Assembly (NCBI GenBank): GCA_036924855.1
Contig: JBAGRP010000001.1
Location: 7,366,001-7,430,000 of the forward strand
Direction of reading: 5' to 3'
Source: Nitrobacteraceae bacterium AZCC 2146
GTDB taxonomy: Bacteria; Pseudomonadota; Alphaproteobacteria; Rhizobiales; Xanthobacteraceae
Length of the DNA: 64,000 bases
Below the pieces are notes generated by a model, which did not search any database, was not told the DNA's origin, and saw only the letters and a list, made by a program, of their open reading frames with translations. Positions 36,328-60,963 of the stretch are shown here, in pieces. The position numbers and the translations under genes are program-made. The first letter of the stretch is position 1. Each line of letters begins with the position of its first letter.

Positions 36328-36672
36328 ATGAGATTGAAAAGTAGCATTTGGGTCGCGGCATATTTGCGCCGCTGCCAGACCGAAGGCGTGTTCGGTGCGG
36401 TGCGCCGGCGCGGCGCGGAGGAAGCCGGCGCAGTGTTCGTCAAGCTGGCGCTGCTCGATGGCAATGCTATGCTCTACGCGCCGGCGCCGCAAACTGCCTA
36501 TGACGACAGTCGACCGGTCGAACGCGTATTCGCGCCATCGCCGCCGCAGCCCGTCGAAGAGCGGAAGATCGAAGAGCGGCTGATGAAGGAGATTTCGTTC
36601 GATCCGGATGTCTGGATCGTCGAGATCGAGGACAAGGCCGGCCGGCATTTTCTCGATCTGGCGAAGGGGTAG
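36328..36672 (+). CDS. DUF1491 protein
   Basis: 114 residues; the family is recognised by MRLKSSIWVAAYLRRCQTEG at the start and DPDVWIVEIEDKAGRHFLDL at the end. It is cytoplasmic, of unknown function and widespread in Rhizobiales. Its last 31 coding bases before the stop are repeated exactly at 60933-60963, so its 3' end looks like the target of an integration event. The present TAG stop may have been supplied by the inserted DNA. Confidence 0.9.
   Translation: MRLKSSIWVAAYLRRCQTEGVFGAVRRRGAEEAGAVFVKLALLDGNAMLYAPAPQTAYDDSRPVERVFAPSPPQPVEERKIEERLMKEISFDPDVWIVEIEDKAGRHFLDLAKG
36639..36669. repeat. 31-bp direct repeat, left copy (attL-like)
   Basis: It is identical, base for base, to 60933-60963 and in the same orientation. 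It covers the codons for the C-terminal AGRHFLDLAKG of DUF1491. The pair frames 24.3 kb of secretion and phosphoesterase genes. Confidence 0.85.
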
Positions 36673-36761
36673 GGCTCTTCTTTCTCGGTGCCCGTTGCTC
36701 GTCTTTTAATTTCCCCTAGACTGCCGGCGAAAGAACGCCTCGATGCTTGACCATTGAGGAA

Positions 36762-37884
36762 CTAGTACCCGGAATCAGAGCTGAGTGATACGGCGGCCTT
36801 TGAAGGGGCGTTGACGGACCTTTTTCTTGGTCCAGATGAAGGGCTCGGCTTTGTCGTTATATGCGTTGATGTAGGCATCGACGTGCTCCTGGAGTTGTTT
36901 GAGGCTTGTGAAGGACGCGCCGCTGAGCGACTGCCCCTGCAGGATCGAGAACCAAACCTCGACCTGATTGAGCCAGGACGCGCTTGTCGGCGTGAAATGA
37001 AATTGCACATTGGGGTGGGCCTTGAGCCAATGTTCATTTTTCTTGTGGGTGTTGAGGTTGTCGAGGATGACGTGAAGCTGGCGGTCCGGAAAAGCTGCGG
37101 TGACGCTGTTCATGAAGTCGAGAAACTCGACGCGGCGGCGCCGTTTTGAATGCGTCGCCATGATCTTTCCGGTGGCAACTTCGAGGGTCGCAAACAGTGT
37201 TGTCGTGCCATGCCGCTTGTAGTCGTGGCTCTGGCCGGTCAAGGCGCGGCCATTGGGCAAGTTCAGATAGCCCTGCGCTCGCTCCAAAGCCTGGATCGAA
37301 GGCGTTTCGTCCACGCCATAGCACAATGGCCTTCTCGGGCGGGGCGACATAGAGGCCAACAACATCGGCGGCTTTGGCCGTAAAGTTCGGGTCGTTGCTC
37401 TCACACCAAGACTTGCGAGCCGCGAGGTCATCTTGTGGCTGCGCAGGAACCGCCAGACATATTGGACGTCAACATCGCCCAGCGCCTCGTCCAGCAGGGG
37501 TCCGGTCCAGCGTGCAAACCCGTCTGGTGGCGGTTTGTCCAGCAGCTCAGAATCCGCTTGTCGGTGGCCTTCGTGTAGATCGGCTGCTTGCCAGGCCGTG
37601 GCTTGTCTTTCAGTCCTTCAAGGCCAAGGTCGGCATAGCGATGCCGCCAAAGACTGACAATCCGAGGCTGGACCCCAACTTCCTTGGCTATCGACCGGGT
37701 GCTGCGCTCGGCCGCCGCCAACAGAACTATCCGCGCCCGCTTCAAATCGCGCTGCAATGTCACCGGTGAGCGACAACACGCCTCCAGAACCTTGCGATCT
37801 TTCCGCGAAAGGTGGACTTCTCTTGCTTCGGGTATCATCCCGATCTTGAATCACGACTCGCGCTCTAAGAAAAGAGGGTACTAG
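36762..37884 (-). mobile_element. IS630-family insertion sequence (inactive)
   Basis: The ends carry CTAGTACCC at 36762-36770 and its reverse complement GGGTACTAG at 37876-37884. This gives about 1.12 kb including a TA duplication as expected for IS630/mariner-type elements. The inner parts of the terminal repeats match only partly. The element lies 93 bp inside the left boundary of the island. Confidence 0.75.
36775..37838 (-). pseudogene. IS630-family transposase, broken by three indels
   Basis: N-terminal helix-turn-helix part: RDLKRARIVLLAAAERSTRS, then SLWRHRYADLGLEGLKDKPR. DDE core: GVDETPSIQALERAQGYLNL, VILDNLNTHKK and TPTSASWLNQVEVWFSILQ. The chain needs a one-base insertion near 37547, another near 37429 and a one-base deletion near 37316 to read as one protein of about 355 residues. 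The individual pieces are otherwise well conserved, so the decay is recent. Confidence 0.85.
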
Positions 37885-37970
37885 GGAAGAGCAGTATCAC
37901 GCGTGCGCAGCGGCGAAACCCCGCCGCAGCCAATGCCTGCGGCAGGGTTAGTTGTCGTGGTTCAGTCGTT

Positions 37971-39749
37971 TCAGTTGTCGCGCTTGTCGTTGTGGTCATG
38001 ACGGTCGTTGTCCTGGTCACCCGAGACGACCGTTCCCGTGACCTGATCGAGGACAAGAGGACGCGTATTCGGCTCGCGCCTGAAGTCGAACATGTTATCG
38101 AGTGAATTTGCATACCGGTCGACGGATCCCGTACCTGCGGGAGGAGCAACCGGGCCATCGATGAAGCCGAGGTTCCAATTGTCCTCGATGAAACGAAGCA
38201 CCGAGGTCTGGTGAGTCAGCGTGTGATCGACGAAGTTCGTTTTCGCCCAGGGCGAGATCACAAGCAGAGGCTGGCGCGGCCCGAGGCCGCAGCGCGCGGC
38301 GTCAGCACCAGGCTGCGGCGTGCCGCAATTGCCGGGGCCGAACAGGAAGTCGATGTTGGTCGCCGACGGAGTCAAGAGCGGAGGCATGACGTGGTCGTAC
38401 CAGCCGTCGGAATCATCCCAAACGATGACGATCGCAGTGTCGTGCCAATAGCGAGACTGCTGGACCGCGTTGATTGTCTTCGCAAGAAAGGCCTGTTCAG
38501 CGAGCGGATCGGAGTTTTGGGGATGACCGTATTGATAAACTGGCGCCTTTACGTAGCTGACCGCAGGCAAAGAGTTATGGGACAGCGCCGTGAAGAAATC
38601 CGAAATGTCGTATTGGTGATTCGCCTGGTCAGTCTTGCCGATCGCCTCTGGCGAACTCGGTCGCAGGTGGTGCGGGTTGCGCGTGCTCGCATATTTCATG
38701 AACGGGGTAACGCCGGTGCTGTAGTCGTTCTCGAGCTTATGCACGTCGGGACCCGGGGTGACGCTCGGGTTCTGCACGCTATAGGTGACGCCGTTGATGT
38801 CCACCTGATGAGCGACATGCTGGGAACCGCAAGACGCGGGCGTAAGCATCGTGCCGTTCGCATCGAACGTCGCGGGCTTGGTCGGCAAGAACCCGCCCTG
38901 GAAATAGCCCCAAGTCACGTTCTTCTCGTTGAGGAGATCGCCGACATTCTTGCCGGTCATTTCAAAAGTCCGGCCACTGCCGCAATCGTCGAGATAGCCG
39001 GGTAGGTTGGCGTCGGTCAAGGTTATCGATTTGTCCGCAGGATTGACGTAGAAACCGGCGGTATTGGGGTTGGTCGGGTTGGCGGGGTCGTGAATGATGA
39101 TGCCATGCGTGTTGCCCGCAATGATATTTGCGTGGCCGGGCACGGTGGGACCGTAGGTGGTGGAGAAGGAATTGTCGCTCATGGCGTAGTGCTGAGCGTA
39201 GTTCCACAGCGCGGTGACGGTGTTGCCGTCGTAGTAATTCATGATGGTTGAGCCGTCCACGGCGCAGCCTTGGCCACTGCCGCTGGCAGTCTGTGGGAAG
39301 CGATCCACCTTCCCGCCATCGTACGCTTGTTGCTCGGGCTCGTAGTTATGAGCCATATCGCAGGTGTAGGCGTCGGCGGGGCCAAGCCGCGTGGGGTTGG
39401 CGGGGCCCGCTAACAAGCTTCGATTCGGATTGTTCTGCAGCAATGCCGACGTCAGGATATTGGCTGCCGGCGTGCCGGGGCGCGCCACGAATTTCGGCGC
39501 AGGCACTCCAAGCCAGCTCTGCTCGCCGGGAATATTCGCCGCGTGCGGATAGGTCCCGAAGTAATTGTCGAAAGTTCTGTTCTCGGGAATGATGACCACG
39601 ACGTGCTTGATAGGGGTTCGCGTATCTTCGCGATGGTTGCCCCGACCTCCATCATCAGCGTGACCGACGGAGGAGCAAAGCACCAACGACGCAACCGATG
39701 AGCAAAGAATTCTGCGGATATTTTGACGAACAGGCCTCGACGATAACAT
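37971..39749 (-). CDS. Exported phosphoesterase, PF04185 family (PE1)
   Basis: 592 residues from the ATG at 39749 (AAGAAGG upstream). A signal peptide ends near SSVGHA. Family motifs: PIKHVVVIIPENRTFDNYFG, the GPTVPGHANIIAG nucleophile-region motif, IVWDDSDGWYDH and RFIEDNW. The family includes bacterial phospholipase C and acid phosphatase AcpA. The C-terminus carries an extension with RPLVLDQVTGTVV and then an Asp/His/Asn-rich tail. With PE2 and PE3 it is a likely cargo of the neighbouring type II system; that link is inferred. Confidence 0.88.
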   Translation of the reverse strand: MLSSRPVRQNIRRILCSSVASLVLCSSVGHADDGGRGNHREDTRTPIKHVVVIIPENRTFDNYFGTYPHAANIPGEQSWLGVPAPKFVARPGTPAANILTSALLQNNPNRSLLAGPANPTRLGPADAYTCDMAHNYEPEQQAYDGGKVDRFPQTASGSGQGCAVDGSTIMNYYDGNTVTALWNYAQHYAMSDNSFSTTYGPTVPGHANIIAGNTHGIIIHDPANPTNPNTAGFYVNPADKSITLTDANLPGYLDDCGSGRTFEMTGKNVGDLLNEKNVTWGYFQGGFLPTKPATFDANGTMLTPASCGSQHVAHQVDINGVTYSVQNPSVTPGPDVHKLENDYSTGVTPFMKYASTRNPHHLRPSSPEAIGKTDQANHQYDISDFFTALSHNSLPAVSYVKAPVYQYGHPQNSDPLAEQAFLAKTINAVQQSRYWHDTAIVIVWDDSDGWYDHVMPPLLTPSATNIDFLFGPGNCGTPQPGADAARCGLGPRQPLLVISPWAKTNFVDHTLTHQTSVLRFIEDNWNLGFIDGPVAPPAGTGSVDRYANSLDNMFDFRREPNTRPLVLDQVTGTVVSGDQDNDRHDHNDKRDN

Positions 39750-40845: not shown

Positions 40846-41439
40846 TCACCAGCGTCCCGGAGCCCAGGTCAAAGCCAGCCGCTGACCCTCGATGATCTGA
40901 ACTGATGTCATTTTCGACGAGACCGCGTCGCGAAGTCTTGAGTAGACTAAGCGCTCATGTTTGGAACCACGCGCCGCGGCCAAGTTGAGCCACATATATG
41001 CGAGGACAACGTTTTGCGGGACGCCGTGGCCCTTGTCGTACATCAATCCAAGCAGGCTCTGGGCCATCGGATTACCTCGAGCGGCAGATCTTGCGTAGAG
41101 ATCGGCAGCGACATCATAAGCTCGCGGCGCGCCGAAGCCGTGTTCGTACATGAAGCCGAGTAGTGCCAGCGCCTTTCCGTCTCCGCGCTGCGCCAACGGA
41201 GACAACTCCTTAACCGCGCGAACGTAATCTCCCATGGAGTAGGCTGCAGTCCCGCGCCTAAATCCGTCGGCATGCGCAGCCTGCATCGTCGCGGAGTTCA
41301 ATGTCAAAATGACGAGCAGGATTGCCCGCGATATCTGCCGCAGCGGACCTACATTCCGGAGCGCAGCGCAAAGCCCCTCAAAAGCAGGACTCGGCGTCGA
41401 CTTTGCTGCATTAGTGTATTCCAGGAACCCGAGTTTCAT
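40846..41439 (-). CDS. Exported Sel1-repeat (TPR-like) protein
   Basis: 197 residues. A hydrophobic segment with Ala-x-Ala-type end (AILLVILTLNSATMQAAHA) suggests export. Sel1-like repeats follow: GDGKALALLGFMYEHGFGAP, then NPMAQSLLGLMYDKGHGVPQ and AYMWLNLAAARG. The ATG at 41439 overlaps the gspD stop by 29 bases, so it is translated with gspD; a later ATG at 41286 is the alternative. Sel1 proteins act as adaptors, so it could be a periplasmic helper of the secretin. That role is a guess. Confidence 0.75.
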   Translation of the reverse strand: MKLGFLEYTNAAKSTPSPAFEGLCAALRNVGPLRQISRAILLVILTLNSATMQAAHADGFRRGTAAYSMGDYVRAVKELSPLAQRGDGKALALLGFMYEHGFGAPRAYDVAADLYARSAARGNPMAQSLLGLMYDKGHGVPQNVVLAYMWLNLAAARGSKHERLVYSRLRDAVSSKMTSVQIIEGQRLALTWAPGRW

Positions 41440-43753
41440 TTATCAAGCTCGCGCCAATACTTCCACGTAGTTTCGTTCGAAGTTCTTCGGCCACGAAATG
41501 AGCATCCGCGCTGTCGCGGATAATCTGCGGCCGGATGAAGATGATGAGCTCGGTGCGGGCGGTTGTTTTGTCCTGATGAGCAAAGCCGTCCCCCAAGCCG
41601 GGAATCTGGTCGAGCAGGGGAATTCCGCTACGATTGTTGTTCTGCTGCTCGCTGATTAGTCCGGCCAGCAGCACCGTCTGACCAGTCGCCACCGAAATCG
41701 AACTCTTGACCTTTCGTTCAGAGACCGTCGGCGTCAAGCTGCTGGCGGTTGTAGACGAAACGTTGCTGATTTCCTGTTCGACATCAAGCCTGACATTTCC
41801 ATTGACGTTGATGCGAGGAGAAACACGCAGAATGATACCCGTGTTGCGATAGTCGATTGTGTTCACGACGGTATTGCTCGTCGTCAACACCGTCGCGCTG
41901 CCGGTGGAAACTGGCACAACGTCGCCGACCTGGAGGGTCGCTGCTTGATTGTTGATCACGACCAGGGACGGGTTGGATAGAACCTTGACGCTGGTCACTG
42001 CGTGAAGAGCGTCGAGAATCAGGCTCGGCTGCGTCTCCGATCCGATCAGGAAATTGAATCCGGGAAATGCACGATTGATAAATGCGTTGGCGACCGATCC
42101 AGCGACTGATGCCGCCCCGGTCGTTGGATCGACGGTCGTGGCCGGCGGGGTCGTCGCCGTTGTGTTGAGGATGGAGCCTTGGTTGGGTTTCAGTCCAAGA
42201 TTGTGACTCGTCAGGTAAGACTGAACGCCATAGCTCAACGCGCTATTGAGCGTGACCTCGGCGATGGTCGCATCGATCGCGACCTGCAACTGCGGTTGAT
42301 CGACCTGTTGCAACGTCGCTTCGATGATTCGGTAGTTTTCCTGATCCGCATAAATCAGCAGGGTGTTGTTGACGGTATCCGGCGTGATCCGGACGCCCTG
42401 CAGCACCGGTTGACCGGAGCCTGAGCTTCGGCTTTCGAGCGATACGCCCCCGGACGCATTCGCGTTTGCGCCTGCTGGCCCGGCAGCGGGTTGCGCGCCG
42501 AAGCCCGACGTGCCGTTGGTCCCGGATGCCGTGCGGGAGCCGAAGCCATTAGTCGACGACGACGAACTTCCATTTAATGAGAGGCGATCGGCGCTCGACG
42601 TCGCGGAAGTGCCCGATCCGGGCGCGATCTGGCTGTCGGCGTTGTCGAGCAGGTTCGAGGATGATCCTCCGATGAACATATCGGTGAGCACGCGAGCGAT
42701 CTGGCGTGCCTCGCCGTATTTTACCCGGTAAACGTGAACGCTGGTTCTCGCGGTGTCCGCATGATCGAGGCGCTTGATCCAGGTCGCGGCCGTGCGCAGC
42801 AGCGCGGGCTTTTTGCTGACCACTAAGATGGCGTTGAGGCGGCTGACCGGTTGAAACTTGATGACGTTCTGGCTGAGACCGTTCTCGCCAGAATCAACGA
42901 TTTTTTCGAGCTCAGCGATAATGGATTCCGGACTGCTGCTGACGATGGGGAAAATTCCGACCGATTGACCGCGCATCCAATCGACGTCGAAGCTGAGCGC
43001 GGTATCTACGGCCGTGCGACGTTCCGCGCCGCTGCCTTGAATGAGAAGGAGATTTCGCGTCACGTCTGCGCGCACCATGCCAGCTTTGGTAGCGAAGCTA
43101 TCCATCAATTTCAGCAGCGTTTGCGCCGAAACATATTGCAGAGGCACCACGGAGATGCCGAAACCGGGCTCCGGACTGGAGGCGGCCGCGTCAACACGGC
43201 CTGAGCCCACCGCGTCGCCCAGCGGCGTCAATCGATAACCGGCGGTATCTCGAACAAGCACGATTCCGTTCAGCCGCAGGGCATTTTCGAGCACAAAGAC
43301 GATGTCCGATTTGGCTACCGGTCTTACAGAGACGAGGCTGACGGTGCCCTGCACCCTAGGATCGATCGTATAGCCCGTACCCAGGATGTCGCCTAACACC
43401 ACTTTGGCTACGGTGGCGACAGGCGTGTTTTCAAAATTCAAATCGAAGCCGTTGCCGGTGGCGGTCGGCTGCGGGCGCTCGTCCGAGACGTCAGGCACCT
43501 CCGCTCCTTCGAACATCGTCGGGCGATTTCGCTGGCCAGCGTTGGTCGCGACAGCATTCACTTGCTGTGGCTGACGGGGCAGGATGTCCAGCGAGCGGAC
43601 CTTGTCGAGCACATCGATATCGGAGCTGTCGGTGCTGGAACTGATAGTTGCGGATCCGCAGGACGCCAGCAGGCCGGCGGACAACAGCACGAATACAGCG
43701 CAAATGCTGCGACCGATCGTCGGGTTTCGGCCGAGGTTGCCGACGCGTGCCAT
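41411..43753 (-). CDS. gspD: Type II secretion system secretin GspD (lipoprotein)
   Basis: 780 residues. The signal peptide has a lipobox LLASC (C32), so the subunit is itself lipidated, as in pilotin-independent secretins. N0 to N3 domains include FDLNFENTPVATVAKVVLGD. A long Ser/Asn/Gly-rich insertion sits at about residues 350-430. The C-terminal secretin core contains LSNPSLVVINNQAATLQVGD and VPVSTG. It forms the outer-membrane channel. It is transcribed away from the gspE-N operon, with a Sel1-repeat gene overlapping its end. Confidence 0.95.
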   Translation of the reverse strand: MARVGNLGRNPTIGRSICAVFVLLSAGLLASCGSATISSSTDSSDIDVLDKVRSLDILPRQPQQVNAVATNAGQRNRPTMFEGAEVPDVSDERPQPTATGNGFDLNFENTPVATVAKVVLGDILGTGYTIDPRVQGTVSLVSVRPVAKSDIVFVLENALRLNGIVLVRDTAGYRLTPLGDAVGSGRVDAAASSPEPGFGISVVPLQYVSAQTLLKLMDSFATKAGMVRADVTRNLLLIQGSGAERRTAVDTALSFDVDWMRGQSVGIFPIVSSSPESIIAELEKIVDSGENGLSQNVIKFQPVSRLNAILVVSKKPALLRTAATWIKRLDHADTARTSVHVYRVKYGEARQIARVLTDMFIGGSSSNLLDNADSQIAPGSGTSATSSADRLSLNGSSSSSTNGFGSRTASGTNGTSGFGAQPAAGPAGANANASGGVSLESRSSGSGQPVLQGVRITPDTVNNTLLIYADQENYRIIEATLQQVDQPQLQVAIDATIAEVTLNSALSYGVQSYLTSHNLGLKPNQGSILNTTATTPPATTVDPTTGAASVAGSVANAFINRAFPGFNFLIGSETQPSLILDALHAVTSVKVLSNPSLVVINNQAATLQVGDVVPVSTGSATVLTTSNTVVNTIDYRNTGIILRVSPRINVNGNVRLDVEQEISNVSSTTASSLTPTVSERKVKSSISVATGQTVLLAGLISEQQNNNRSGIPLLDQIPGLGDGFAHQDKTTARTELIIFIRPQIIRDSADAHFVAEELRTKLRGSIGASLINETRVPGIH

Positions 43754-44104: not shown

Positions 44105-45787
44105 ATGGCCAGCGAAGAGTCTTTGCAGTTCGTGGAACATCTGCGCCAAAGCAATCATTTGACGAAGACAAGCGGCCATGGCGATCCCGCGGAACAGGGC
44201 GGATCCGATCGTCGTCAAGGCAAGCTCTGGGAGCTCACCGATCTTTCGGCCGGCGAGTTCGCGGAGGAGGCGGCTCGATTCTACGGTCTGGAACGCGTCG
44301 CGCTCCAGGACATGCTGTCAGCCCTGCCGCGGGTCGCGTCGTTCTCGCAACGCTTTCTGCGGGAAATGCTGGTCTTTCCCTATCAATCTGCCGACGGAAC
44401 TCCCGTGCTCGCGGTCGCGGATCCGACCGATATGGCGGCGCGGCGGGCGGCGGAGATCGTGCTCGGCGCGGGCGTCGCCGTCAAGGTGGCGTCATTTGAA
44501 GACCTCACGGTCGCCCTCAATCTACGTCTGGGCGATGAAGACGTCGAGGCTGGGGGCGACGGTGAGACGCGGCAGCCGCGCGAAGACGATATCGAGAGCT
44601 TGCGGGACCTCGCCAGCGGCGCGCCCGTGGTACGTGCTGTCAACGATCTCTTGGAAAAGGCGGTCGAGTTGCGCGCGAGCGACATTCATATCGAGCCCTT
44701 TCACACCGGGCTCGTGGTCCGCATGCGCATCGACGGCCTGCTGCGGCCGGTCGCAGCGCCTGTCGGCGTTTTGCCGCAAGCCGTCATCTCTCGCATCAAA
44801 ATCATCGCGAGTCTCAATATCGCGGAGCGTCGTCTGCCGCAGGACGGCGCCGCGCGGCTGCGGGCTGGGCGTTCGGACGTCGATATTCGCGTCGCGATCA
44901 TGCCGACCCAGCATGGGGAATCCGCCGTCATCCGCATCCTGCCAAAGGATCGCGGACTGCTCGTCGTCGAAAAGTTAGGATTTTCACCGGCCGATGATGC
45001 CACGCTCAGACGATTGCTGACGCTGCCTCACGGGATGATCGTCATCACCGGTCCGACCGGAAGCGGCAAAACCACGACGCTGGCGACGATCCTGTCTATC
45101 CTGAACGAACCGGTTCGAAAAATTTTGACCATTGAGGATCCAGTCGAATACGAAATACCCGGCGTCAATCAATCGCAGATCAAGCCGACGATAGGGCTAA
45201 CGTTCGCAGCGGCGCTGCGCTCGTTCGTGCGTCAGGATCCCGACGTCATCATGGTCGGTGAGGTGCGCGACTCCGAGACCGCACATGTGGCCATTCACGC
45301 AGCCCTGACCGGGCATCTCGTGCTGACGACGCTGCATACCGAAACCGCGGCCGCAGCGGTGCCTCGTCTGCTCGATCTCGGCGTCGAAGGCTATCTGTTG
45401 CGATCGACCCTGCGCGCGGTGGTCGCGCAACGGCTCGTTCGTCAGCTGTGCGAGCGCTGCAAATTGCCGAAGATGCTGACTGAAGCCGATCTCGCCGAAG
45501 ATCCCCGGCTCGGTGCCTTCGGCTTCCGCGCCGGCGAAACGATTGCGGAGCCGTGCGGCTGCGAGCGCTGCGGCGGCATGGGCTATCGCGGCCGGTTGGG
45601 CGTGTTCGAGATTCTCGAACTGACCAATGACCTTCGCCAGATGATCAGTGAGAAGACCGACGGACTGAAGATCGACGAGACGGCGATCCGCGCCGGAATG
45701 ACGACGATGCTCGACGATGGCATTGCGAAGTGTCGTGCTGGCCTGACCTCGCCCGCGGAGATTTTCCGCGTCACAACCGGACGGTGA
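44105..45787 (+). CDS. gspE: Type II secretion ATPase GspE
   Basis: 560 residues with GGA eight bases before the ATG. Features: an N-terminal N1E-type domain, Walker A GPTGSGKTTT at 316-325, an Asp box, IMVGEVRDSETAH with the Walker B Glu E386, and a His box. The zinc site has four Cys (CERCKL and CGCERCGGMGYRGR). It powers pseudopilus assembly at the inner membrane. First gene of the overlapping gspE-to-gspN operon. Confidence 0.96.
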   Translation: MASEESLQFVEHLRQSNHLTKTSGHGDPAEQGGSDRRQGKLWELTDLSAGEFAEEAARFYGLERVALQDMLSALPRVASFSQRFLREMLVFPYQSADGTPVLAVADPTDMAARRAAEIVLGAGVAVKVASFEDLTVALNLRLGDEDVEAGGDGETRQPREDDIESLRDLASGAPVVRAVNDLLEKAVELRASDIHIEPFHTGLVVRMRIDGLLRPVAAPVGVLPQAVISRIKIIASLNIAERRLPQDGAARLRAGRSDVDIRVAIMPTQHGESAVIRILPKDRGLLVVEKLGFSPADDATLRRLLTLPHGMIVITGPTGSGKTTTLATILSILNEPVRKILTIEDPVEYEIPGVNQSQIKPTIGLTFAAALRSFVRQDPDVIMVGEVRDSETAHVAIHAALTGHLVLTTLHTETAAAAVPRLLDLGVEGYLLRSTLRAVVAQRLVRQLCERCKLPKMLTEADLAEDPRLGAFGFRAGETIAEPCGCERCGGMGYRGRLGVFEILELTNDLRQMISEKTDGLKIDETAIRAGMTTMLDDGIAKCRAGLTSPAEIFRVTTGR

Positions 45788-45791
45788 GACT

Positions 45792-51113: not shown

Positions 51114-51673
51114 ACGCGATCGCGACGTTAAGAAAAACCTTCGCAGCGTCTCCCGTCCTGGCGGCCGCCACTTACGCCGGCCTCGTGGTCTTGCTGCTGT
51201 TCACGGTTGCAACATCCGTTGCGGACGTTCTCGGCAAGCGCGACGAGGTTTCGTCGCAGGCGAACATGCTGGAGCAGCTCGAGGGCCCCAGACCCGGCGC
51301 GGCCCGCGGTCCATCCGGCGACGCGATGATGCCTTCGGGCTCGGCGTTTCTGGAGGGGACGACGGTCACCATCGCGGGTGCGACTCTGCTTCAGCGCGTG
51401 GACGGCGCGATAACGAAATTCGGCGGAAACGTCTTGTCGTCTCAGGTCGAATTGCAAGGCACGCAATCCAAGGCGGGGTTTCTCAGCATGATCGCGAGTT
51501 GTGAAATCGATCAGCCGGAATTGCAGCAGCTGCTCTACGACGTCGAAGCCGGCATGCCGTTTTTGTTTGTTGATCAACTCGTGGTTCAGACGTCGATCGC
51601 GTCATCCAGCGCCGGGAACGGGAGATTGCGGATTCTACTGGCGGTGTCCGGGCAATGGCAGGGCGCAAAATGA
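51110..51673 (+). CDS. gspM: Type II secretion protein GspM (subtype b)
   Basis: 187 residues with an ATG overlapping the gspL stop. One N-terminal membrane helix (VLAAATYAGLVVLLLFTVAT), then a periplasmic domain with AFLEGTTVTIAGATLLQRVD and MPFLFVDQLVVQTS, typical of the PilO-like GspM subtype. It partners GspL in the inner-membrane assembly platform. Confidence 0.88.
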   Translation: MNAIATLRKTFAASPVLAAATYAGLVVLLLFTVATSVADVLGKRDEVSSQANMLEQLEGPRPGAARGPSGDAMMPSGSAFLEGTTVTIAGATLLQRVDGAITKFGGNVLSSQVELQGTQSKAGFLSMIASCEIDQPELQQLLYDVEAGMPFLFVDQLVVQTSIASSSAGNGRLRILLAVSGQWQGAK

Positions 51674-52354: not shown

Positions 52355-52828
52355 TCAGCTTTGTGGCAAGTATTGCCGAAACGCGAGCGTGAGCAACAGG
52401 CCGATCGCCAGAAATGGCCCGAACGAAATGGACGTCCGGCGAGTCATTTGCTGCCCCGCCACCTGCATGAATCCGGCTGCGGCAAGAGCCGTCAGCGCGG
52501 CAACCAGCAACAACATGGGAAGCCCAGCAATGCCGATCCACAATCCGGCGGCGGCCAGGAATTTGACGTCTCCCAGACCAAGGCCCTGGATTTTTCGTAA
52601 AACGAAATACAGTCGTCGCAATAGCCAAAATGTGACTCCGATAGCCGCGCCCTCGCACGCGACCTCCAGGCCGGCCAGCGAACCACCGGCAATGACGGCT
52701 TTCGACAGTCCCAGAACGGCGACGGTTGCATTCAGCCAGTCCGGAATGATTCCGTGGCGAATATCGATCCACGCAAGCACCCAGCTCAGCAAACAGAGCA
52801 GCGCAAAGAATCCGATGTCAACGACCAT
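52355..52828 (-). CDS. Short A24 prepilin peptidase (GspO-like, no methylase domain)
   Basis: 157 residues from the ATG at 52828; the frame is open to 52969 but that extension is polar and codon-poor. The aspartic-protease residues are in WIDIRHGIIPDW and GLGLGDVKFLAAAGLW, followed by a FGPFLAIG end motif. The domain with the zinc Cys motif found in full-length GspO/PilD is absent, as in CpaA/TadV-type enzymes. It would cleave the five pseudopilins. Convergent with gspN, 25 bp apart. Confidence 0.85.
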   Translation of the reverse strand: MVVDIGFFALLCLLSWVLAWIDIRHGIIPDWLNATVAVLGLSKAVIAGGSLAGLEVACEGAAIGVTFWLLRRLYFVLRKIQGLGLGDVKFLAAAGLWIGIAGLPMLLLVAALTALAAAGFMQVAGQQMTRRTSISFGPFLAIGLLLTLAFRQYLPQS

Positions 52829-53022
52829 GCCGGAGCTCAATGACCTCTTCAACTTCGATGTCGCCGAGGGTGCGAAGAGCTCAGCCGATTTGCCGCCGGG
52901 TCCGTGGCGGACATGCTGTGAATGTGCCGTTTCTTTATCAGCTACGGAACGATGTCGTGTCATCTTCATAGTTGAGCATGATCCCCCGGGTCGAGCCCCG
53001 GGGGACTTTCTCGGATCAAGCT

Positions 53023-54861
53023 CTAGTGACGATCATGATCACGATCGTCGCCGCTCTTGGAGGCGGTGATCACGACACCCGTCGCCTCATCGAGAACCAG
53101 CGTGCGCGGGCCGTCATCATCTCGATCGTCGAAGTTGAACATGTTGTTGAGAGGTCCGGCGATGGTGTCGAACGAGCCACCCGGTTGAATGCGCTCACCG
53201 GAAAGCCAGTTGTCTTCGACGAACCGAAGCACCGACGTCTGATCGGTCAGGGTATGATCGACGTAGTTCCGTTTCGCGAAAGGCGAAACCACCAGCAGCG
53301 GCATGCGGGTTCCATAGCCACAACGGCCCCACGCCGGCTGGCCGAAGTTGCCATTGAGCGGCGCTGCCGGGACCATTTTTCCCTGCTGAAAGCCGTTGCT
53401 CGTGTTGCAGACCCCGGGGCCGTTGAGGGTGTCTACCGCAGGGTTGAACGACGAGTTCACGATCGGAGGCATCTGATGATCGTACCAGCCATCGGAGTCA
53501 TCATAGAGGACAACCACTGCGGTTTCCGACCATTCCGGACTCTCCTGTAGCGCATTGATGACCCGGACGAGGAAATGCTGCTCATCGATCGGATCCGAAT
53601 ATCCAGCATGTCCATCTTCAAACGCCGCGGCCTTCAGGAAGCTCACGGCCGGCAGGTTGCCTGCTTTCAACGTCGTGAAAAAGTCTTTGATGTCATATTG
53701 GTGATTAGCCGGGTCCGGCGTGTTGGTATGCGGGATCACGCTGTGACCGATGGCCTCAACCGAGCTAGGACGCGCGTGAGTTGGATTGCGAGTAGACGCA
53801 TAGTATTGGAACCAGGCGTGGTGGGGAATGTAATCGACTGACGTGGAAGCAGGTGTGCCCGGCACCGTCGGATTGGTTTCCCGTGCGCAGCCGGTGGTGC
53901 CGTTGGCGTTGACGGCGGTCAGGTCGAACCCGCCCATGAACGAACCCCACGTGGTGCCCTTGGCATTGAGAAGGTCGCCAATGTTTTTGCCGGCCATGGT
54001 GACCTGATCGATGCTCGAATTCGAGCACACATCTTGGAGCGGGTCGCCGTCGCCGATTTCAGTGATGTTGCTCGCGATGTGGTCGGAGCCCCCGAACGCC
54101 TCATGCGTGCCGTGCAGCAGATTGCCCGAGCCGTCGAGAACGTTCAGCGTTGCTGCGATGCCGTTGGTCTGGCCTGAGATCAGGTTGATAGCACCGGGCG
54201 TCGAGGGACCGAACTGCGTCGTGTAATTGTTGTCGTTCAATGCGAAATGTTGGGCGTAATTCCAGAGTGCGGTGACGGTGTTGCCGTCGTAGTACCCCAT
54301 GACGAGCGCCTTGCTGCCGATGCCGCTCGGCGGCGGACCTGCGGTGCCGACGAATGCGGGGAAGCCGTCCATCCGGCCGTTATTGTACGCGCTTTCCTCC
54401 GGGCTTTCGTTGTGACCCTGATCCGCCGTCAGCGCTTGCGAAGGCGCCAGCCGGAATGGGTTGGACGCGGCAGCGCCATTGCTCTTGCTACTGTTCGGAG
54501 CGACCGGAGCATTGGGATTGCTGTTGGGGTTGTTGTTGAGGAGGTCGACGCCTGCGAGCGGTGTGAAATTGTGATTCACGTCGAGCGGCGTGGCGAGATT
54601 GTTGACTTTAGGCGTGTGCTTCGACGGCGAGAACGGGGTTTCGCCTTGCAGATTCAGGGCGTTCGGATAGGTGCCGAAATAGTGATCAAACGAGACGTTT
54701 TCCTGAAAGATCACGACGAGATGCTTGATCGGCGTTGCGGTGCGAGAATTATGGAAGTCGTCGGAACCGCGGCCGCGATGATCGTCGGCGGCGACGGCAC
54801 TCGCTGCTGCGATCACAAGTGCGAGAGAAGATACAAATCCTAAGGCTGCTGGCAAACGCAC
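53023..54861 (-). CDS. Exported phosphoesterase, PF04185 family (PE2)
   Basis: 612 residues from a GTG at 54861 with an excellent AAGGAGG upstream. The signal peptide ends around AAASAVAA. Motifs: PIKHLVVIFQENVSFDHYFG, FGPSTPGAINLISG, VVLYDDSDGWYDH and RFVEDNW. It shares with PE1 the C-terminal block RTLVLDEATGVVI and an Asp/His-rich end. It is closest to PE1 in plan. Probable phospholipase C or phosphatase released through the type II system. Confidence 0.88.
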   Translation of the reverse strand: MRLPAALGFVSSLALVIAAASAVAADDHRGRGSDDFHNSRTATPIKHLVVIFQENVSFDHYFGTYPNALNLQGETPFSPSKHTPKVNNLATPLDVNHNFTPLAGVDLLNNNPNSNPNAPVAPNSSKSNGAAASNPFRLAPSQALTADQGHNESPEESAYNNGRMDGFPAFVGTAGPPPSGIGSKALVMGYYDGNTVTALWNYAQHFALNDNNYTTQFGPSTPGAINLISGQTNGIAATLNVLDGSGNLLHGTHEAFGGSDHIASNITEIGDGDPLQDVCSNSSIDQVTMAGKNIGDLLNAKGTTWGSFMGGFDLTAVNANGTTGCARETNPTVPGTPASTSVDYIPHHAWFQYYASTRNPTHARPSSVEAIGHSVIPHTNTPDPANHQYDIKDFFTTLKAGNLPAVSFLKAAAFEDGHAGYSDPIDEQHFLVRVINALQESPEWSETAVVVLYDDSDGWYDHQMPPIVNSSFNPAVDTLNGPGVCNTSNGFQQGKMVPAAPLNGNFGQPAWGRCGYGTRMPLLVVSPFAKRNYVDHTLTDQTSVLRFVEDNWLSGERIQPGGSFDTIAGPLNNMFNFDDRDDDGPRTLVLDEATGVVITASKSGDDRDHDRH

Positions 54862-55265
54862 TGGGATGGCCTCCTTGTTGAAGAGTTGAACTGGAAGAAT
54901 TCTGAGAGTTACGTCGTGACGATTAAATGCGAAGCGCCGCGCAAATGTTTCAGAGCCAAGTTACAGTTCGACGAAAAAAATGTGACATCGCATGGAATAC
55001 GTTGGTAGCCGACAAAGGTCGTCGAGCGGCATCTACCAGATTCGATTGATGTTTCACGTGAAAATGGGGAGAGAGAAAATAGAAAGCGCAGAGCGAACAG
55101 GCCCGGCCTTTCGAGTCGTCCGTTCTCACAAAAAATTCGGAGTGCGTGAGAAAATCCCGACGCAATGCGTTCTCGTCACAAAACGGCAAACGAAGCAGAC
55201 AATATTGCGCTACGCGCGACATACGGTCGCAGCATGCAAGCCGCGACGCAAAGAGTTTCAAAATC
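54862..55265. promoter_or_regulatory. Divergent intergenic region with parS-like palindrome
   Basis: 404 bp between PE2 (minus) and the M75 gene (plus), AT-rich. At 55050-55065 it reads TGTTTCACGTGAAAAT, matching 14 of 16 positions of the ParB-binding parS consensus, with the 12-bp core TTTCACGTGAAA fully palindromic. No gene is seen. Confidence 0.5.
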
Positions 55266-56129
55266 ATGATGGATCCTTATCTCGGCCGTGAACTCTTTGC
55301 GTCGCCGAGGCGGAGCCTGGCACGCGACGGTGGGCCACCCGTGCGCCGGCGTCAGTGGGCCGCCATGTGTCTTTTATCCGTTGTGTTGGTGACTGGCGCA
55401 CGAAGTGCGAACGCTACGCCGCTTGACGAAGCCGCGGAGCGCTACCGGCCCTATATGACCGAGGGCATCGGTCAGGCTCTAGCAGGCGCGCGCGACTTGC
55501 GCGGGCGGATCGCCGCTAAGGATCTTGCAGGAGCCAGGAAAGCTTGGATCGCGGCTCGCGCCGGCTGGGAGCGTTCGGAAGTCTTTACGGCCGGCTTCGT
55601 TCCCGAGCTTGACGCCCAAGTCGATGCCTGGCCGAACGCCGATACCGGTTTTCACGCGATCGAGGCGAAGCTGTTTGGCGCAAATCGCATCGACGTCGAA
55701 AACGAGACTGATGCTCTCGTCGATCATCTGAGCAATCTTCACGGCAAGCTTCGTGACATGCCGCTCACACCGCAGGGGTTGCTGGATGGCACCGTGCGGC
55801 TTGCCTACGAGGTCGGCGAGAGCAAGGCCGACGGCGGCGAATCCCGCATCAGCGGAACATCGCTGGACGACATGCGCAACAATATCTCCGGCATCCAGTT
55901 GGCTTATCGCACCATTTTCGCGGCGGTGCTCAAATCGGCCGATCGAAAGTTCGCTGATGCGGTGGACGGAAAAATCGAGGAGCTCAAGGCGCTCCTGGCG
56001 GGGCGCGATCTGCAGCGCGTCGATATTCCGAAACTGCGTCGCGCAAGCGAGGAACTCGTGGTCGCGTTGCAAAGCGCAGCGACCATGCTTCGGTTGCAAC
56101 GACCGACGCTAGAGGCGGCATCGCGATGA
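55266..56129 (+). CDS. EfeO/EfeM-like M75 (imelysin-family) periplasmic protein
   Basis: 287 residues from the ATG at 55266 (a second ATG follows immediately). A long n-region (RRRQWAAMCLLSVVLVTGA) leads into a cleavage site near RSANA. The M75 metal motif H-x-x-E is H130-E133 in DTGFHAIEAKLFG. Helical repeats follow, including SISGT-like and NISGIQLAYR segments. EfeO/EfeM proteins bind ferrous iron in the periplasm. It is coupled by a 4-bp overlap to the di-heme protein, with no EfeU permease near. Confidence 0.82.
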   Translation: MMDPYLGRELFASPRRSLARDGGPPVRRRQWAAMCLLSVVLVTGARSANATPLDEAAERYRPYMTEGIGQALAGARDLRGRIAAKDLAGARKAWIAARAGWERSEVFTAGFVPELDAQVDAWPNADTGFHAIEAKLFGANRIDVENETDALVDHLSNLHGKLRDMPLTPQGLLDGTVRLAYEVGESKADGGESRISGTSLDDMRNNISGIQLAYRTIFAAVLKSADRKFADAVDGKIEELKALLAGRDLQRVDIPKLRRASEELVVALQSAATMLRLQRPTLEAASR

Positions 56130-57505
56130 CCGTTCGAGGCTCATGGATCGTTGCCGTCGCGCTCGGCTTCCTGGTGATGGGCCTTCATGGACGCGTCGGG
56201 GCTTTTCCGGTCGACGGCGACCAGACCACGCTGCCTGCAACAACGGAACTCAACGAGGATGCGCTGGACAAGCCACGCGAGGTGTTCCGATCTGAAGGGG
56301 TTGGCGGCGGCAAGTCCTATCTGGTCAATCTCGGAAATCTGGCCTTCAGTTCGTCCGGGATTCTGGGTGGCGTAGCGCGACAGGCCGGTGTCAGCTGTAG
56401 CACCTGCCACGTCAACGGTGCCTCCAACGCCAAGTTCTTCATCCCGAAGTTGTCGACGCGTCCCGGCAATTTCGATACCACCGGTCCGCTGTTCAACCCC
56501 AAGGCCGACAACTTCGTGCTGGATCCGATCAGGATTCCGAGCTTGCGCGGCGCGCGATACCTCGCTCCATATGGCCACGATGGCCGGATGGCATCGCTGC
56601 ACGATTTTGTCCGCAACGTCATCGTCAATGAGTTTTCCGGCCCTGAACCCTCACCTGGCATTGTCAACGCCATCGTCGCATATATCCACGACATCGATTT
56701 TCTACCCAACCCCAACCTCGGCCCCGGCGGCCATTTGATAGGACAAGTCAGCGATGCGGAACGGCGAGGCGAGGCCTTGTTCCTCAAGCCTTTCCCGCAC
56801 GATCCGAGCCTAAGCTGTGCCGGCTGTCACGTGCCGTCGGCCGCATTCGTCGATCATCAACAACACGATGTGGGCTCCGGCGGCCTTTTCAAGACGCCGA
56901 CGCTGCGCAACGCCGATTTCAACGCGCCATATTTTCATGACGGGCGCTTCGACAGTTACGATCAAGTGGTGGCGCATTTCGACCGCGTGTTCGATCTCGG
57001 TCTGTCGACGCAGGATCGGCGCGATCTGGTGGGCTATCTCACCGCGGTGGGTGACGGCGTGCAGCCCTATGAGCACGATGGCGCCGGCGCCGTGCTCAAG
57101 GAAATCAACGATTTCACCGCCGTTCTCGGAACCGCAATTCCGGCGAGCGACAGGGACATCATCGCACTTGCGGTCGACACGATCGGCAGCGAATTGCGCG
57201 AACTGACCGAGCGCTATCCCGATCGGAAGAACACCAGCGTATCGGGTGGCCAGCAAGAACGCGGACTCGCACGTCTTGCCCTCAAGGAACTTGTCCTTAC
57301 GCTGCGCCGCATCGACACGGCCGCTGCTGAAGGTCGCTTCTCCGACGCGGCCGCTGAATACAAAAATTATCGCTATTTGATGGTCGCTGCCGTGCCCACT
57401 TTGTTGGCGGGCGCCGAGCCATGGTCTCTGTTCAATCCCGTAGTTCATGACGCTCACTACGCGGCGCTGCGGCAGGTCCTGCAGACAAGGCACACTGCGC
57501 GCTGA
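56126..57505 (+). CDS. Di-heme cytochrome c peroxidase (MauG/CcpA superfamily)
   Basis: 459 residues with an N-terminal signal helix. Two c-type heme motifs are present: C91-STC-H95 and C231-AGC-H235. LDPIRIPSLRGARYLAPYGH and FKTPTLRNADFNAPYFHDGR are the usual conserved blocks between and after the hemes. It overlaps the M75 gene (ATGA). Such pairs occur with iron-uptake or oxidation systems. Whether it reduces peroxide or oxidises a protein or metal cannot be told from sequence. Confidence 0.88.
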   Translation: MTVRGSWIVAVALGFLVMGLHGRVGAFPVDGDQTTLPATTELNEDALDKPREVFRSEGVGGGKSYLVNLGNLAFSSSGILGGVARQAGVSCSTCHVNGASNAKFFIPKLSTRPGNFDTTGPLFNPKADNFVLDPIRIPSLRGARYLAPYGHDGRMASLHDFVRNVIVNEFSGPEPSPGIVNAIVAYIHDIDFLPNPNLGPGGHLIGQVSDAERRGEALFLKPFPHDPSLSCAGCHVPSAAFVDHQQHDVGSGGLFKTPTLRNADFNAPYFHDGRFDSYDQVVAHFDRVFDLGLSTQDRRDLVGYLTAVGDGVQPYEHDGAGAVLKEINDFTAVLGTAIPASDRDIIALAVDTIGSELRELTERYPDRKNTSVSGGQQERGLARLALKELVLTLRRIDTAAAEGRFSDAAAEYKNYRYLMVAAVPTLLAGAEPWSLFNPVVHDAHYAALRQVLQTRHTAR

Positions 57506-57706
57506 TCGTCTTGCGCTGATTTTCGCCGCCACGAATGACTGCTCGTCGGATGAACCGCGCCGCGCGCGACGGTGCATTGAAGTTCCAATCGCGTTGAGTT
57601 TTTTTGGAATCAGAATTTTCTTTCTTCGCTTTCACAGCTCCGAAACGCGAGCGTCATGTTCGGCGACTAAGTATACTAACGCGAACTTTAACCTTTGAGG
57701 TCGACA

Positions 57707-59761
57707 ATGAAACTGACATTCGATGTGAAAAAAAGATGGCGTGCCACGACCGCGTTATGCGTCGTCTCGACGCTGGCGATTGTTACCGCAAGCTACAGCG
57801 CCGAAGGGGGCAAAAGTAACTGGGACCAGCGCAAGCATCCTCATCACAGCCATCTTGACCAGAACAACAACGGCGACAACGACAAGCACCACGACAATGA
57901 ATCCGCAGACGCAGTCAGGACCGAAAGCCCGATCAAGCACGTCATCATTCTGATCGGCGAGAATCGCGGTCTCGATCACACTTTCGGCGTGTATCGGCCG
58001 AAGGGCAAAGGACAAACGATTTCCAACCTTCTGTCCAAGGGCATCGTCAACGAAGACGGCTCGCCGGGTCCGAATTTCGCACAGGCGCAGCAGTTCTCGA
58101 TCGGAGCTCAACCGGCCTATTACATCGGCGCTCCCAATGTCGCCAAGTTCCCCTACAGCGCGACCAACGCGATGCCGCAGCCCAACACTGCTGGCACTCC
58201 GACGACATCGAGCGATACGGCGCCGCCGTTCAAGACCGTTGCCGAAGCCAGCGTCGAAAAGGACATGGATCGGTCCGACCTCGACATTCTGACGACCGGC
58301 GCCAGCAGCCTGCCGGTCAATTCACTGGATACCCGCGTTCCCGGCGCCGGCACCCTGGCGGGCCCGTTTCCGCTGCAAGGTCCTGCCATCAGCGACGACG
58401 ACTATACCGGTGACACGACGCACCGCTTCTACCAAGCATGGCAGCAGCAGGATTGCAGCCTCGTCAACGCGACGAAGGACAATCCCGCTGGCTGCAAGAG
58501 CGATACGTTTCCGTTCGTGATGGCCTCCTATTCGGCGACCAACAAGAGCCAAGGCAACTCGATGGGATTCTACAATGCTGAGCAGGAGCAAGCTCCGGTC
58601 CTGAAGAGCTTGGCTGACCGCTTCACGCTGAGCGACAATTTCCATCAGTCGTTCCAGGGTGGTACCGGTGCCAACCACTTCATGCTCGGCACCGGCGACG
58701 CCGGCTTCTGGAGCGACGGTAACGGCAATGCCACCACGCCTCCTGCGACCGTGATCGCCAATCCTAATCCGAAAGCGGGGACGGTCAATCAGTACACCGT
58801 CGACGGCAACTTCAGCGCCTGCGCGGACGTGTCCCAGCCCGGCGTCCAGCCGATCGTGAGCTATCTGCAGCATCTGTCTTACGCTGCGGAGCCCAATTGC
58901 CAACCGCGTCACTACTACATGCTCAACAACGTCAATCCGGGCTTCCTGCCGAACGGTGCCTTGTCGGGGGGGAACAACCTTCCGCCGTCGGCCGTCAAAA
59001 CGATTGGTGACGCCCTGATCGAGAAAAAAATCTCGTGGGCCTATTACGGCGGTGCGTATAATGACGCCGTGGCTCTCTCGAATGCGGCAGTTGCGGCAAA
59101 TCCGACCAACCCAAATCTGTCCGCAGCAGCCCTCACCGATCCGGCCCACGCTCTCGGCGTGGCCTATTGCCAGATATGCAATCCGTTCCAGTACGCGAAG
59201 TCGATCATGGCCGATCCAGCGGTCAGGACGGCGCACATCAAGGATACCGCGGATCTGATCACTGCCATCGAGAACAACACCCTGCCTTCGGTGTCGTTCG
59301 GCAAACCTGATGGTTTGCTTGACGGACATCCGCAGAGTTCGAAAGTCGATCTGTTCGAAGCCTACGCGCTCAACGTCCTCTCTGCCCTTGACGACAATCC
59401 CAAGCTTAAGGCCGAGACGGTCGTGTTCATCACGTGGGATGAGGCTGGCGGCTACTGGGACTCGGGCTTCGTCCAGCCACTCGACTTCTTCGGCGATGGA
59501 CCGCGCGTTCCGTTGCTGATTCTCTCTCCTTACTCGACCGGCGGAAAGATCGATCATGGTTATGGCGATCATGTCTCGCTGTTGAAGTTCATCGAGCGCA
59601 ACTGGAAGCTCCAGCCGCTGACGAACCGTAGCCGCGACAATCTTCCCAACCCGAAAATGGCGAAGAACAATCCGTACGTGCCGACCAACAGTCCGGCGCT
59701 TTCCGACCTGTTCGATACCTTCGACTTCGACCATCCGGTCAATCAGGCCTACACCGAGTGA
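57707..59761 (+). CDS. Exported phosphoesterase, PF04185 family (PE3)
   Basis: 684 residues from the ATG at 57707 (GAGG upstream). After the signal peptide there is a His/Asn/Asp-rich stretch (KHPHHSHLDQNNNGDNDKHH). Then come PIKHVIILIGENRGLDHTFG, QGGTGANHFMLGTGDAGFW and FITWDEAGGYWD. It is longer and more divergent than PE1 and PE2 and lacks their C-terminal LVLD extension. It resembles AcpA-type acid phosphatases or the non-hemolytic phospholipase C group. Downstream of the di-heme gene on the same strand. Confidence 0.86.
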   Translation: MKLTFDVKKRWRATTALCVVSTLAIVTASYSAEGGKSNWDQRKHPHHSHLDQNNNGDNDKHHDNESADAVRTESPIKHVIILIGENRGLDHTFGVYRPKGKGQTISNLLSKGIVNEDGSPGPNFAQAQQFSIGAQPAYYIGAPNVAKFPYSATNAMPQPNTAGTPTTSSDTAPPFKTVAEASVEKDMDRSDLDILTTGASSLPVNSLDTRVPGAGTLAGPFPLQGPAISDDDYTGDTTHRFYQAWQQQDCSLVNATKDNPAGCKSDTFPFVMASYSATNKSQGNSMGFYNAEQEQAPVLKSLADRFTLSDNFHQSFQGGTGANHFMLGTGDAGFWSDGNGNATTPPATVIANPNPKAGTVNQYTVDGNFSACADVSQPGVQPIVSYLQHLSYAAEPNCQPRHYYMLNNVNPGFLPNGALSGGNNLPPSAVKTIGDALIEKKISWAYYGGAYNDAVALSNAAVAANPTNPNLSAAALTDPAHALGVAYCQICNPFQYAKSIMADPAVRTAHIKDTADLITAIENNTLPSVSFGKPDGLLDGHPQSSKVDLFEAYALNVLSALDDNPKLKAETVVFITWDEAGGYWDSGFVQPLDFFGDGPRVPLLILSPYSTGGKIDHGYGDHVSLLKFIERNWKLQPLTNRSRDNLPNPKMAKNNPYVPTNSPALSDLFDTFDFDHPVNQAYTE

Positions 59762-59874
59762 TCGTACGACAATAACTGCGCGGTTGTGATCTGACCTCGT
59801 TGTGGCGGCGCCGATCGAACCTGATGGCTCGGTCGGCGCTGTTTTTGTGCGGACCCATACAACGGATTATTGCG

Positions 59875-60555
59875 ATGGCCAAAGGCCTGATGGTTTCGTT
59901 CTGGCTGAGCCTTCTCGGCCTCGTCAGCGCTCTTATTTGTGGCTGCGTCTCAGCGCAGGCGCAGCAATTTTCGGCCGATCTCGTCACTACTCACATCAGT
60001 GCCCCGGAAACCGCGACTGCCGGGAAGCTCCGTGTTTTCAACGACAAGGTGCGCATCGAAACACCGGATTTTGCGGACGGCTTCTTTTTGGTCAACGCCA
60101 CGAGCCGCGCCGCTTTTTTCGCACGCCCGGCCGAAAGAATTTTCATGGATGCGCGGCAATCGAGCCGGCTGACCCGGATGTTCGTTCCGGTCGATCCGAG
60201 CGACCCTTGCCGGCAATGGCAGACTATGGCGAAGCTCGCTGGCGCCACGGACCCGAGCGATTCATGGCTGTGCGAGCGCATCGGCGAGGAGATGATCGAC
60301 GGACGCCGTACTGCCATCTACCGGGCCATTTCAGCCCCGAATCGCAACATCCTCGGCTGGATCGACGCGGACCTTAAATTTCCGCTGCGCATCCAGACGG
60401 AAGACGGGGTGACCATCACTGCTGAGAACATTAGGGAAGAGCCACAGCCCGCGCGTCTGTTCGAGATCCCCCCGGACTTTCGGAAATTCGATCCCCAGGC
60501 CCTGATCAAGCGTATCAAGCAAAGCGATGTGTGGGTCGATGAGCCGCCACTGTGA
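59875..60555 (+). CDS. Exported protein with LolA-like character
   Basis: 226 residues from the ATG at 59875 (59824 is an alternative in frame). Signal peptide GLMVSFWLSLLGLVSALICG with cleavage near SAQA. The mature part begins QQFSADLVTTHISAPETATA and has beta-strand alternation (KLRVFNDKVRIETPDFADGF) like LolA/DUF4412 periplasmic proteins. Two Cys (DPCRQW and SWLCERIG) may form a disulfide. Function not recognised. Last intact gene of the island. Confidence 0.65.
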   Translation: MAKGLMVSFWLSLLGLVSALICGCVSAQAQQFSADLVTTHISAPETATAGKLRVFNDKVRIETPDFADGFFLVNATSRAAFFARPAERIFMDARQSSRLTRMFVPVDPSDPCRQWQTMAKLAGATDPSDSWLCERIGEEMIDGRRTAIYRAISAPNRNILGWIDADLKFPLRIQTEDGVTITAENIREEPQPARLFEIPPDFRKFDPQALIKRIKQSDVWVDEPPL

Positions 60556-60565
60556 TTGTGCACCA

Positions 60566-60870
60566 GGAATATTGGGCTCTACACTGCTGCGCAACTTTGC
60601 GAGCTACGCGGCGGCGCTGGCCGGTCTCACCGCCACGGTCATCGCGAGCGACGAACTCGGCGCGATCGGAGGCACGAACGGCGACGTTTTCATCCTTGCC
60701 GTGACGCGCAAGCGAGATCTGCATCGGCATCATCTGCGCGGGCGTCGTACTCGCGGGGACCGATTTTGGTGGAGCGCGGCACCGGCTGGCCGCCCAGCTT
60801 GCTACGATTTCGGCCGAAATCGCCGAGAGGCTTGCCGGCAGCTCATCTGGTCACCACTACAGGTCGAGAC
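60566..60870 (+). pseudogene. FUSC-family transporter fragment
   Basis: GILGSTLLRNFASYAAALAG, then LTATVIASDELGAIGG and GDVFILAVTR, are read in one frame. After a shift near 60711 a second frame gives SEICIGIICAGVVLAGTDFG, then ARHRLAAQLATISAEIAERL. Together these follow the membrane domain of fusaric-acid-resistance (FUSC) exporters. Both ends are missing. It lies directly before the right direct repeat. Confidence 0.65.
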
Positions 60871-60932
60871 ATGAGTCAGTAAATCTCCGAAAGTTTACGA
60901 TTACTATCCCGGATTACGCGAGCTATCGCGCT

Positions 60933-60963
60933 CGGCCGGCATTTTCTCGATCTGGCGAAGGGG
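60933..60963. repeat. 31-bp direct repeat, right copy (attR-like)
   Basis: An exact copy of 36639-36669 in the same orientation. Here the DUF1491-like codons continue in frame past the repeat (GRGEERRLAVL then stop), which may be the ancestral end of the DUF1491 gene. DUF2336 follows 33 bp away on the opposite strand. Confidence 0.85.

Follow-up and report, generated by a model that had tools for sequence, protein, structure and literature searches.

Does a perfect direct repeat on either side of a block of accessory genes mean that the block was placed there by a site-specific recombinase? The question is raised by a locus of Nitrobacteraceae bacterium AZCC 2146, whose genome is one contig of 7,640,769 bases. 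The 64,000 nucleotides analysed here (positions 7366001-7430000, hereafter the window) contain a 24-kb island with genes of a type II secretion system (T2SS) and phosphoesterases, located between a DUF1491 and a DUF2336 gene and framed by two copies of a 31-bp sequence. The original prediction had read these copies as the footprint of site-specific integration into a gene end. The explanation that we hold to be reasonably probable, with ample room for doubt, is stepwise mosaic growth of accessory DNA between DUF1491 and DUF2336, with the 31-bp repeat as a repair scar and not the core of an attachment (att) site. The features on which the argument turns are listed below; G008 and G010 are related genomes described later.

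36328-36672, plus strand: intact DUF1491 gene, 114 amino acids (Pfam PF07372, E 8.7e-33)
36639-36669, plus strand: left copy of the 31-mer, within DUF1491 and followed by its stop codon TAG
36706-36764, minus strand: probable C-terminal remnant of a gene for a small membrane protein, truncated by an insertion sequence (IS); it reads VPQWSSIEAFFRRQSRGN and then stops
36765-37881, minus strand: ISRj1-like element of the IS630 family, transposase in two overlapping frames (36775-37431 and 37428-37838), TA on both sides
37882-60565, no strand assigned: unit in common with G008, T2SS and phosphoesterases (96.8% identity over 22.7 kb)
60566-60932, plus strand: debris that includes a FUSC-like transporter gene fragment, not found on the G008 contig that carries the module
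60933-60963, plus strand: right copy of the 31-mer, without the remainder of DUF1491 and without a stop codon
60958-60981, plus strand: end of a common palindromic repeat (repetitive extragenic palindrome-like), overlapping the last six bases of the right 31-mer
60997-61971, minus strand: DUF2336 gene (Pfam), native right flank, adjoining DUF1491 in congeners

The repeat and the site of insertion

The two copies agree in 31 of 31 bases, exactly at the coordinates that had been predicted. As also predicted, the left copy forms the 3' end of an intact DUF1491 gene, and the right copy lies between debris (the FUSC-like fragment) and a chromosomal gene (DUF2336). Since a given 31-mer is expected by chance about 3e-12 times in the 15.3 Mb of both strands, the pair must be a true duplication. 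It may comprise just 25 bp, the last six bases (AAGGGG) being a shared microhomology that belongs also to the repeat element running rightward. Searches of the AZCC 2146 genome with repeat-spanning DNA, in each of which the best 40 of 70-89 candidates were scored, found the 31-mer at two places only, so that a further copy is unlikely, if formally possible; a 31-mer scattered through the genome, which would have told against the prediction, was not what we saw. Three other matches were set aside. The 109-bp direct repeat at 39136 and 54194 reflects the likeness of two phosphoesterase genes, the 20-bp repeat at 36747 and 45125 (one copy within gspE, the other in the membrane-protein remnant) was taken as chance, and so was a match of 21 of 31 bases to the core near DUF1491 in another locus (L015).

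The DUF1491 protein had a match in 95 of 101 genomes searched, AZCC 2146 included, and the loci of 29 relatives, among them 17 congeners, were compared with flanks of up to 1.5 kb. DUF2336 was located within 1.5 kb of DUF1491 in 24 of the 29; for the other five, one of them interrupted by a contig end, the view is limited to the 1.5-kb flank. In 16 of the 17 congeners the two genes lie within 1.2 kb of each other and free of the island, with gaps of 6 to 1172 bp, while the contig of the remaining congener (G001) ends about 0.13 kb past DUF1491, within what appears to be the start of an IS. Because of this close spacing in congeners the DNA between the 31-mers is, on comparative grounds, inserted accessory DNA, and the island-free arrangement expected in relatives was indeed there. 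None of the 16 congeners in which the interval is visible has a 24-kb island at this locus, and none of the 24 relatives in which it was seen whole has a comparable island at the end of DUF1491. What the interval contains differs among relatives: by eye, palindromic repeats of two or more kinds, the start of what looks like an IS, a membrane protein gene (G010) and a stretch of 1.2 kb (G002). The intergenic space between the two convergent genes is variable and permissive. In a genome of another genus (G059, L028 151-663) an IS630-type transposase, 40% identical to that of the window, is found downstream of DUF1491. No viral contigs with DUF1491 or its end were found, nor did the literature searched name DUF1491.

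Where the foreign DNA begins and ends

The limits of the inserted unit were located by comparison with G008, a Tardiphaga metagenome-assembled genome (MAG; 77% complete, 4% contamination) that is the closest relative and has no island at its DUF1491/DUF2336 site. Positions 37880-60565 of the window are found on a separate 45-kb contig of G008 (C557), with 96.8% identity over 22.7 kb. The shared unit reaches neither 31-mer, leaving 1.2 kb on the left and 0.37 kb on the right. On the G008 contig the 31-mer itself had nothing beyond 15-bp matches, and the 93-bp left stretch, the IS, the right debris and the 31-mer together gave short matches only, of at most 19 bp, which holds for positions 36670-36765 and 60560-60935 as well. 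Since the DNA touching either 31-mer is thus absent from the G008 contig, what the two genomes share is less than the whole stretch from one repeat to the other. A search for GspM found matches in 21 of 101 genomes, the own genome included, and the sole near-identical one was that of G008 (98%). When the flanks of the G008 module were used to look for an orthologous empty site in AZCC 2146, they had short or paralogous matches only and the site was not placed. The surroundings of the module on C557 (L070-L072) include an AbiTii gene and an NMT1-type substrate-binding gene and, by eye, ParB-like and DNA-methylase-like open reading frames (ORFs).

At fourfold-degenerate sites the genes beside the insertion differ from those of G008 by 12-19%. 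The same comparison for 15 island genes (without the ORFs at 47386, 48012 and 51655 and without the A24 peptidase) gave 0.9-5.1% for eleven of them, 10.8% for GspF, and 12.6-16.6% for phosphoesterase 3, the MauG-like protein and phosphoesterase 1. These figures suggest an exchange of most of the T2SS after the two species had separated, a separate history for the ends and a unit that is itself a mosaic, with the MAG source as a caveat. Blockwise, 39.4-56.4 kb of the window is mostly 97-99% identical to G008 (95-96% around GspF), and the end blocks (phosphoesterase 1; MauG-like protein to phosphoesterase 3) are mostly about 90-95% identical.

On the left, similarity to G008 starts at the right end of the IS, and the short stretch between the left 31-mer and the IS is probably the C-terminus of a membrane protein gene native to the locus. 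In the congener G010 a complete 136-amino-acid gene (L016 1077-1484) lies between DUF1491 and DUF2336; its protein ends in IPQWSSIELAARRLFRRQTTWY and that of a database relative in LIPQWSSMRAFFRRRFP. The identity of the remnant is held probable because it has the same place and orientation as the G010 gene. The alignment score between the remnant and the G010 DNA (42) was reached by none of 1000 mononucleotide shuffles, the largest being 34, and overlapping windows of G010's own locus scored 34-42. When the window was scanned in six frames with the C-terminus of the database relative, a query picked after the match had been seen, the remnant was the best hit with 11 of 17 identities, the next having 9. 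Five database clusters (P0001-P0005) belong to the 136-amino-acid family at E 0.001, and one of them, P0003, reads by eye on into DNA antisense to DUF1491, which suggests the same neighbourhood.

The element that cuts off the remnant has a DDE_3 transposase and a TA target, as IS630 elements do, and resembles ISRj1 and the IS630 family of Bradyrhizobium (91-92% identity of 36765-37881). Three other ISRj1-like copies, among the best 40 of 70-89 candidates scored, are present in the AZCC 2146 genome; because they too are just 91-92% identical, the copy in the window was not recently derived from them. It marks the left joint only, a second copy on the right being absent. With a locus-type remnant to the left of the IS and similarity to G008 from its right end, the foreign DNA probably starts on this side at or in the IS and not at the 31-mer. 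The prediction of inserted accessory DNA is supported, but the DNA next to the left copy resembles the island-free G010 locus.

On the right, the module is followed by debris in which the FUSC-like fragment scored 24.9 bits with Pfam, below the curated 30.9, and its DNA is 72% identical to an annotated FUSC gene. In G008 an identical core is followed by TAG, whereas the right copy in the window continues as AGAGGGGAAGAGCGC. This continuation matches the end of a palindromic repeat, one copy of which elsewhere in the AZCC 2146 genome (L095) ends ...CACAAGGGGAGAGGGGAAGGAAGCGC and one in Blastochloris ...CACAAGGGGAGAGGGGAAGAGCGC (BLAST of the repeat end in pooled loci, E 0.001 and 2.7e-5, respectively). 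Partial copies were found at at least 10 places of the own genome among the best 40 of 59 candidates scored, and in G017 and G014 a repeat of this kind stands in the interval from DUF1491 to DUF2336. The repeat-end pattern occurs once in the window at up to three mismatches, where 0.01 occurrences are expected. Probably, then, 25 bases of DUF1491 are joined at the six-base overlap to native repeat DNA. The repeat together with the outer flanks does not rebuild the empty site of G008, a comparison based on a related species and not on island-free strains of the same one.

The tyrosine-recombinase family PF00589, searched for as integrase, had 18 matches in the genome, of which 15 exceeded the cut-off; the nearest lies 38.5 kb rightward of the island, and no match was found in the island or between genome positions 7252099 and 7465491. 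In a control the search found the family in 14 of 14 genomes. Pfam received 40 submissions chosen from the 107 ORFs of the window, and no serine recombinase was seen among these. Of four structural features of a site-specific island, one, the direct repeat, was found and three were not. The comparisons do not support the attL/attR reading, because the unit misses both 31-mers, locus-type DNA probably adjoins the left copy, the right copy lacks the TAG and PF00589 is absent within 38 kb; the central claim of the prediction, site-specific integration into a gene end, is not supported.

Origin of the repeat and competing explanations

Accessory DNA would have accumulated in steps in the permissive space between DUF1491 and DUF2336. 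The 22.7-kb module of T2SS and phosphoesterases would have been joined to the locus on its left at the ISRj1-like element, where similarity to the G008 module and similarity to the locus gene both end, and we infer that this element mediated the joining. The right end would consist of transporter-gene debris and then 25 nucleotides copied from the DUF1491 3' end, with the microhomology AAGGGG as the point of fusion to the end of the palindromic repeat, which is taken as native intergenic DNA. A single event of microhomology-primed copying during end repair could have filled the right junction with such a short templated or duplicated piece. Most likely, then, the 31-bp pair is a repair scar of this kind rather than an att core.

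Several points weigh against this explanation. An integrase would leave a direct repeat on either side of a foreign unit and one of its copies at a gene end, as seen here, and the templated insertion is a step we infer; a later deletion at a true attR would look identical. The window lacks the second half of the palindromic repeat, so that a loss has to be assumed. The remnant has just 18 codons, tblastn on its own supports it weakly, with E 0.038 in the window and 0.39 in pooled loci, and in a harder control other windows of the ten loci compared scored up to 37 against its 42. Among congeners the membrane protein gene was seen at the locus in G010 alone and could itself have been transferred. 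The place of the module copy in G008 is less certain, the MAG being incomplete.

The main rival, which we consider unlikely without dismissing it, is true site-specific integration at the DUF1491 3' end with a core of at least 31 bp and later loss of the recombinase. A deletion between two AAGGGG runs would then have taken the stop codon and most of the right palindromic repeat, and the membrane-protein remnant would be the island edge. The exact repeat at a gene end around foreign DNA and the congeners without the island suit this explanation, and islands are known to enter protein-coding genes: in a report on dusA-associated islands of tyrosine recombinases (PMC4482086), as here, foreign DNA lies by a protein gene with a flanking direct repeat and relatives are island-free. 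Unlike those islands, the present one has no integrase that we could find, a unit short of the repeats (on both sides), an unexpected right junction that calls for the extra deletion, and no second island at the site. The resemblance of the DNA right of the left copy to island-free G010 also tells against integration, as do the absence of PF00589 within 38 kb and of a comparable island in the 24 of 29 relatives with the whole interval. A more far-reaching version, in which a recombinase, either lost or not recognised, uses the DUF1491 3' end as a hitherto unreported attachment site and moves the T2SS-phosphoesterase module between plasmids and chromosomes of Nitrobacteraceae, the right end having later eroded, appears improbable.

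Slightly less probable still is a duplication of the locus, in which the insert brought along a second DUF1491 (a cointegrate of two IS630 copies would be one way) that was then deleted except for 31 bp. The IS630 element at the left joint, with its three further genomic copies, and the related module on a conjugative plasmid would fit, but the right side has neither a further trace of a second DUF1491 nor a second IS630 copy. The least credible alternative, that a deletion in an ancestor had fused DUF1491 to the repeat and so removed the stop codon before the insert recombined across the 31 bp and brought a new TAG, would make the right copy with its repeat DNA the true pre-insertion sequence, but it has the ancestral gene read more than 320 codons into DNA antisense to DUF2336 (the frame of ORF 60991-61956) and needs incoming DNA to supply by chance the same TAG as in G008.

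The secretion module and its relatives

The closest parallels in gene order are a module on the Bradyrhizobium plasmid p186_1, which is typed as conjugative, and one in Bradyrhizobium sp. dw_411. The genes of the module are the following.

37971-39749, minus strand: PF04185 phosphoesterase 1 (Pfam)
40846-41439, minus strand: Sel1/TPR-like protein adjoining GspD (Pfam; gene order of p186_1)
41411-43753, minus strand: GspD secretin (Pfam)
44105-51673, plus strand: genes for GspE, F, G, minor pseudopilins, K, L (PilN-like) and M (T2SSM_b) (Pfam; order as in p186_1)
51655-52329, plus strand: conserved protein with weak similarity to GspC (26.3 bits, cut-off 150)
52355-52969, minus strand: prepilin peptidase, A24 (Pfam; same position in p186_1)
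53023-54861, minus strand: PF04185 phosphoesterase 2 (Pfam)
55146-56129, plus strand: imelysin/EfeO-like protein (Pfam; NCBIfam EfeO match below cut-off)
56126-57505, plus strand: MauG/cytochrome c peroxidase-like protein (Pfam; NCBIfam matches below cut-off)
57695-59761, plus strand: PF04185 phosphoesterase 3 (Pfam)
59800-60555, plus strand: conserved protein, last gene of the module (no Pfam or NCBIfam match; relatives in dw_411 and STM 3843, DNA match on p186_1)

The set expected of a T2SS is present: GspD, E, F, G, K, L and M, ORFs with the pseudopilin N-terminal motif and an A24 peptidase, with GspC recognizable weakly; the ORF at 48012-48365 had no Pfam match. By eye, the N-termini of the phosphoesterases resemble export signals. 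Judged from gene content, the likely job of the module is to export phosphoesterases for obtaining phosphate. The p186_1 module has the TPR protein, GspD to GspM, the A24 peptidase, the EfeO-like protein, the cytochrome c peroxidase, a phosphatase and the last hypothetical protein in the order of the window, and dw_411, viewed from its Sel1 gene rightward, has the same order for the genes compared. Since their GspM proteins are 57% (p186_1) and 66% (dw_411) identical to that of the window, these modules are relatives and not recent copies. The window and G008 units also hold phosphoesterases 1 and 2, whereas one phosphatase is annotated in the p186_1 module.

In Caulobacter a link between the T2SS and phosphate starvation has been reported (PMC2996285). 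In both cases an alphaproteobacterium has its T2SS next to a gene connected with phosphate supply; the neighbour there is the lipoprotein ElpS, while in the window it is PF04185 phosphoesterases. The literature searched yielded no paper on type II secretion in a Tardiphaga genome, and no description of this module or site was seen among the titles and beginnings of abstracts listed.

A convincing att-like pair of repeats can thus mislead, since relatives place the likely joints elsewhere. The case is one of ordinary horizontal acquisition with an instructive att-like signature, and no new kind of mobility is needed to account for it. T2SS and phosphoesterases travel together as a module, which two close species carry at different sites and of which a conjugative plasmid has a related form; this bears on how soil alphaproteobacteria may gain phosphate-scavenging secretion.

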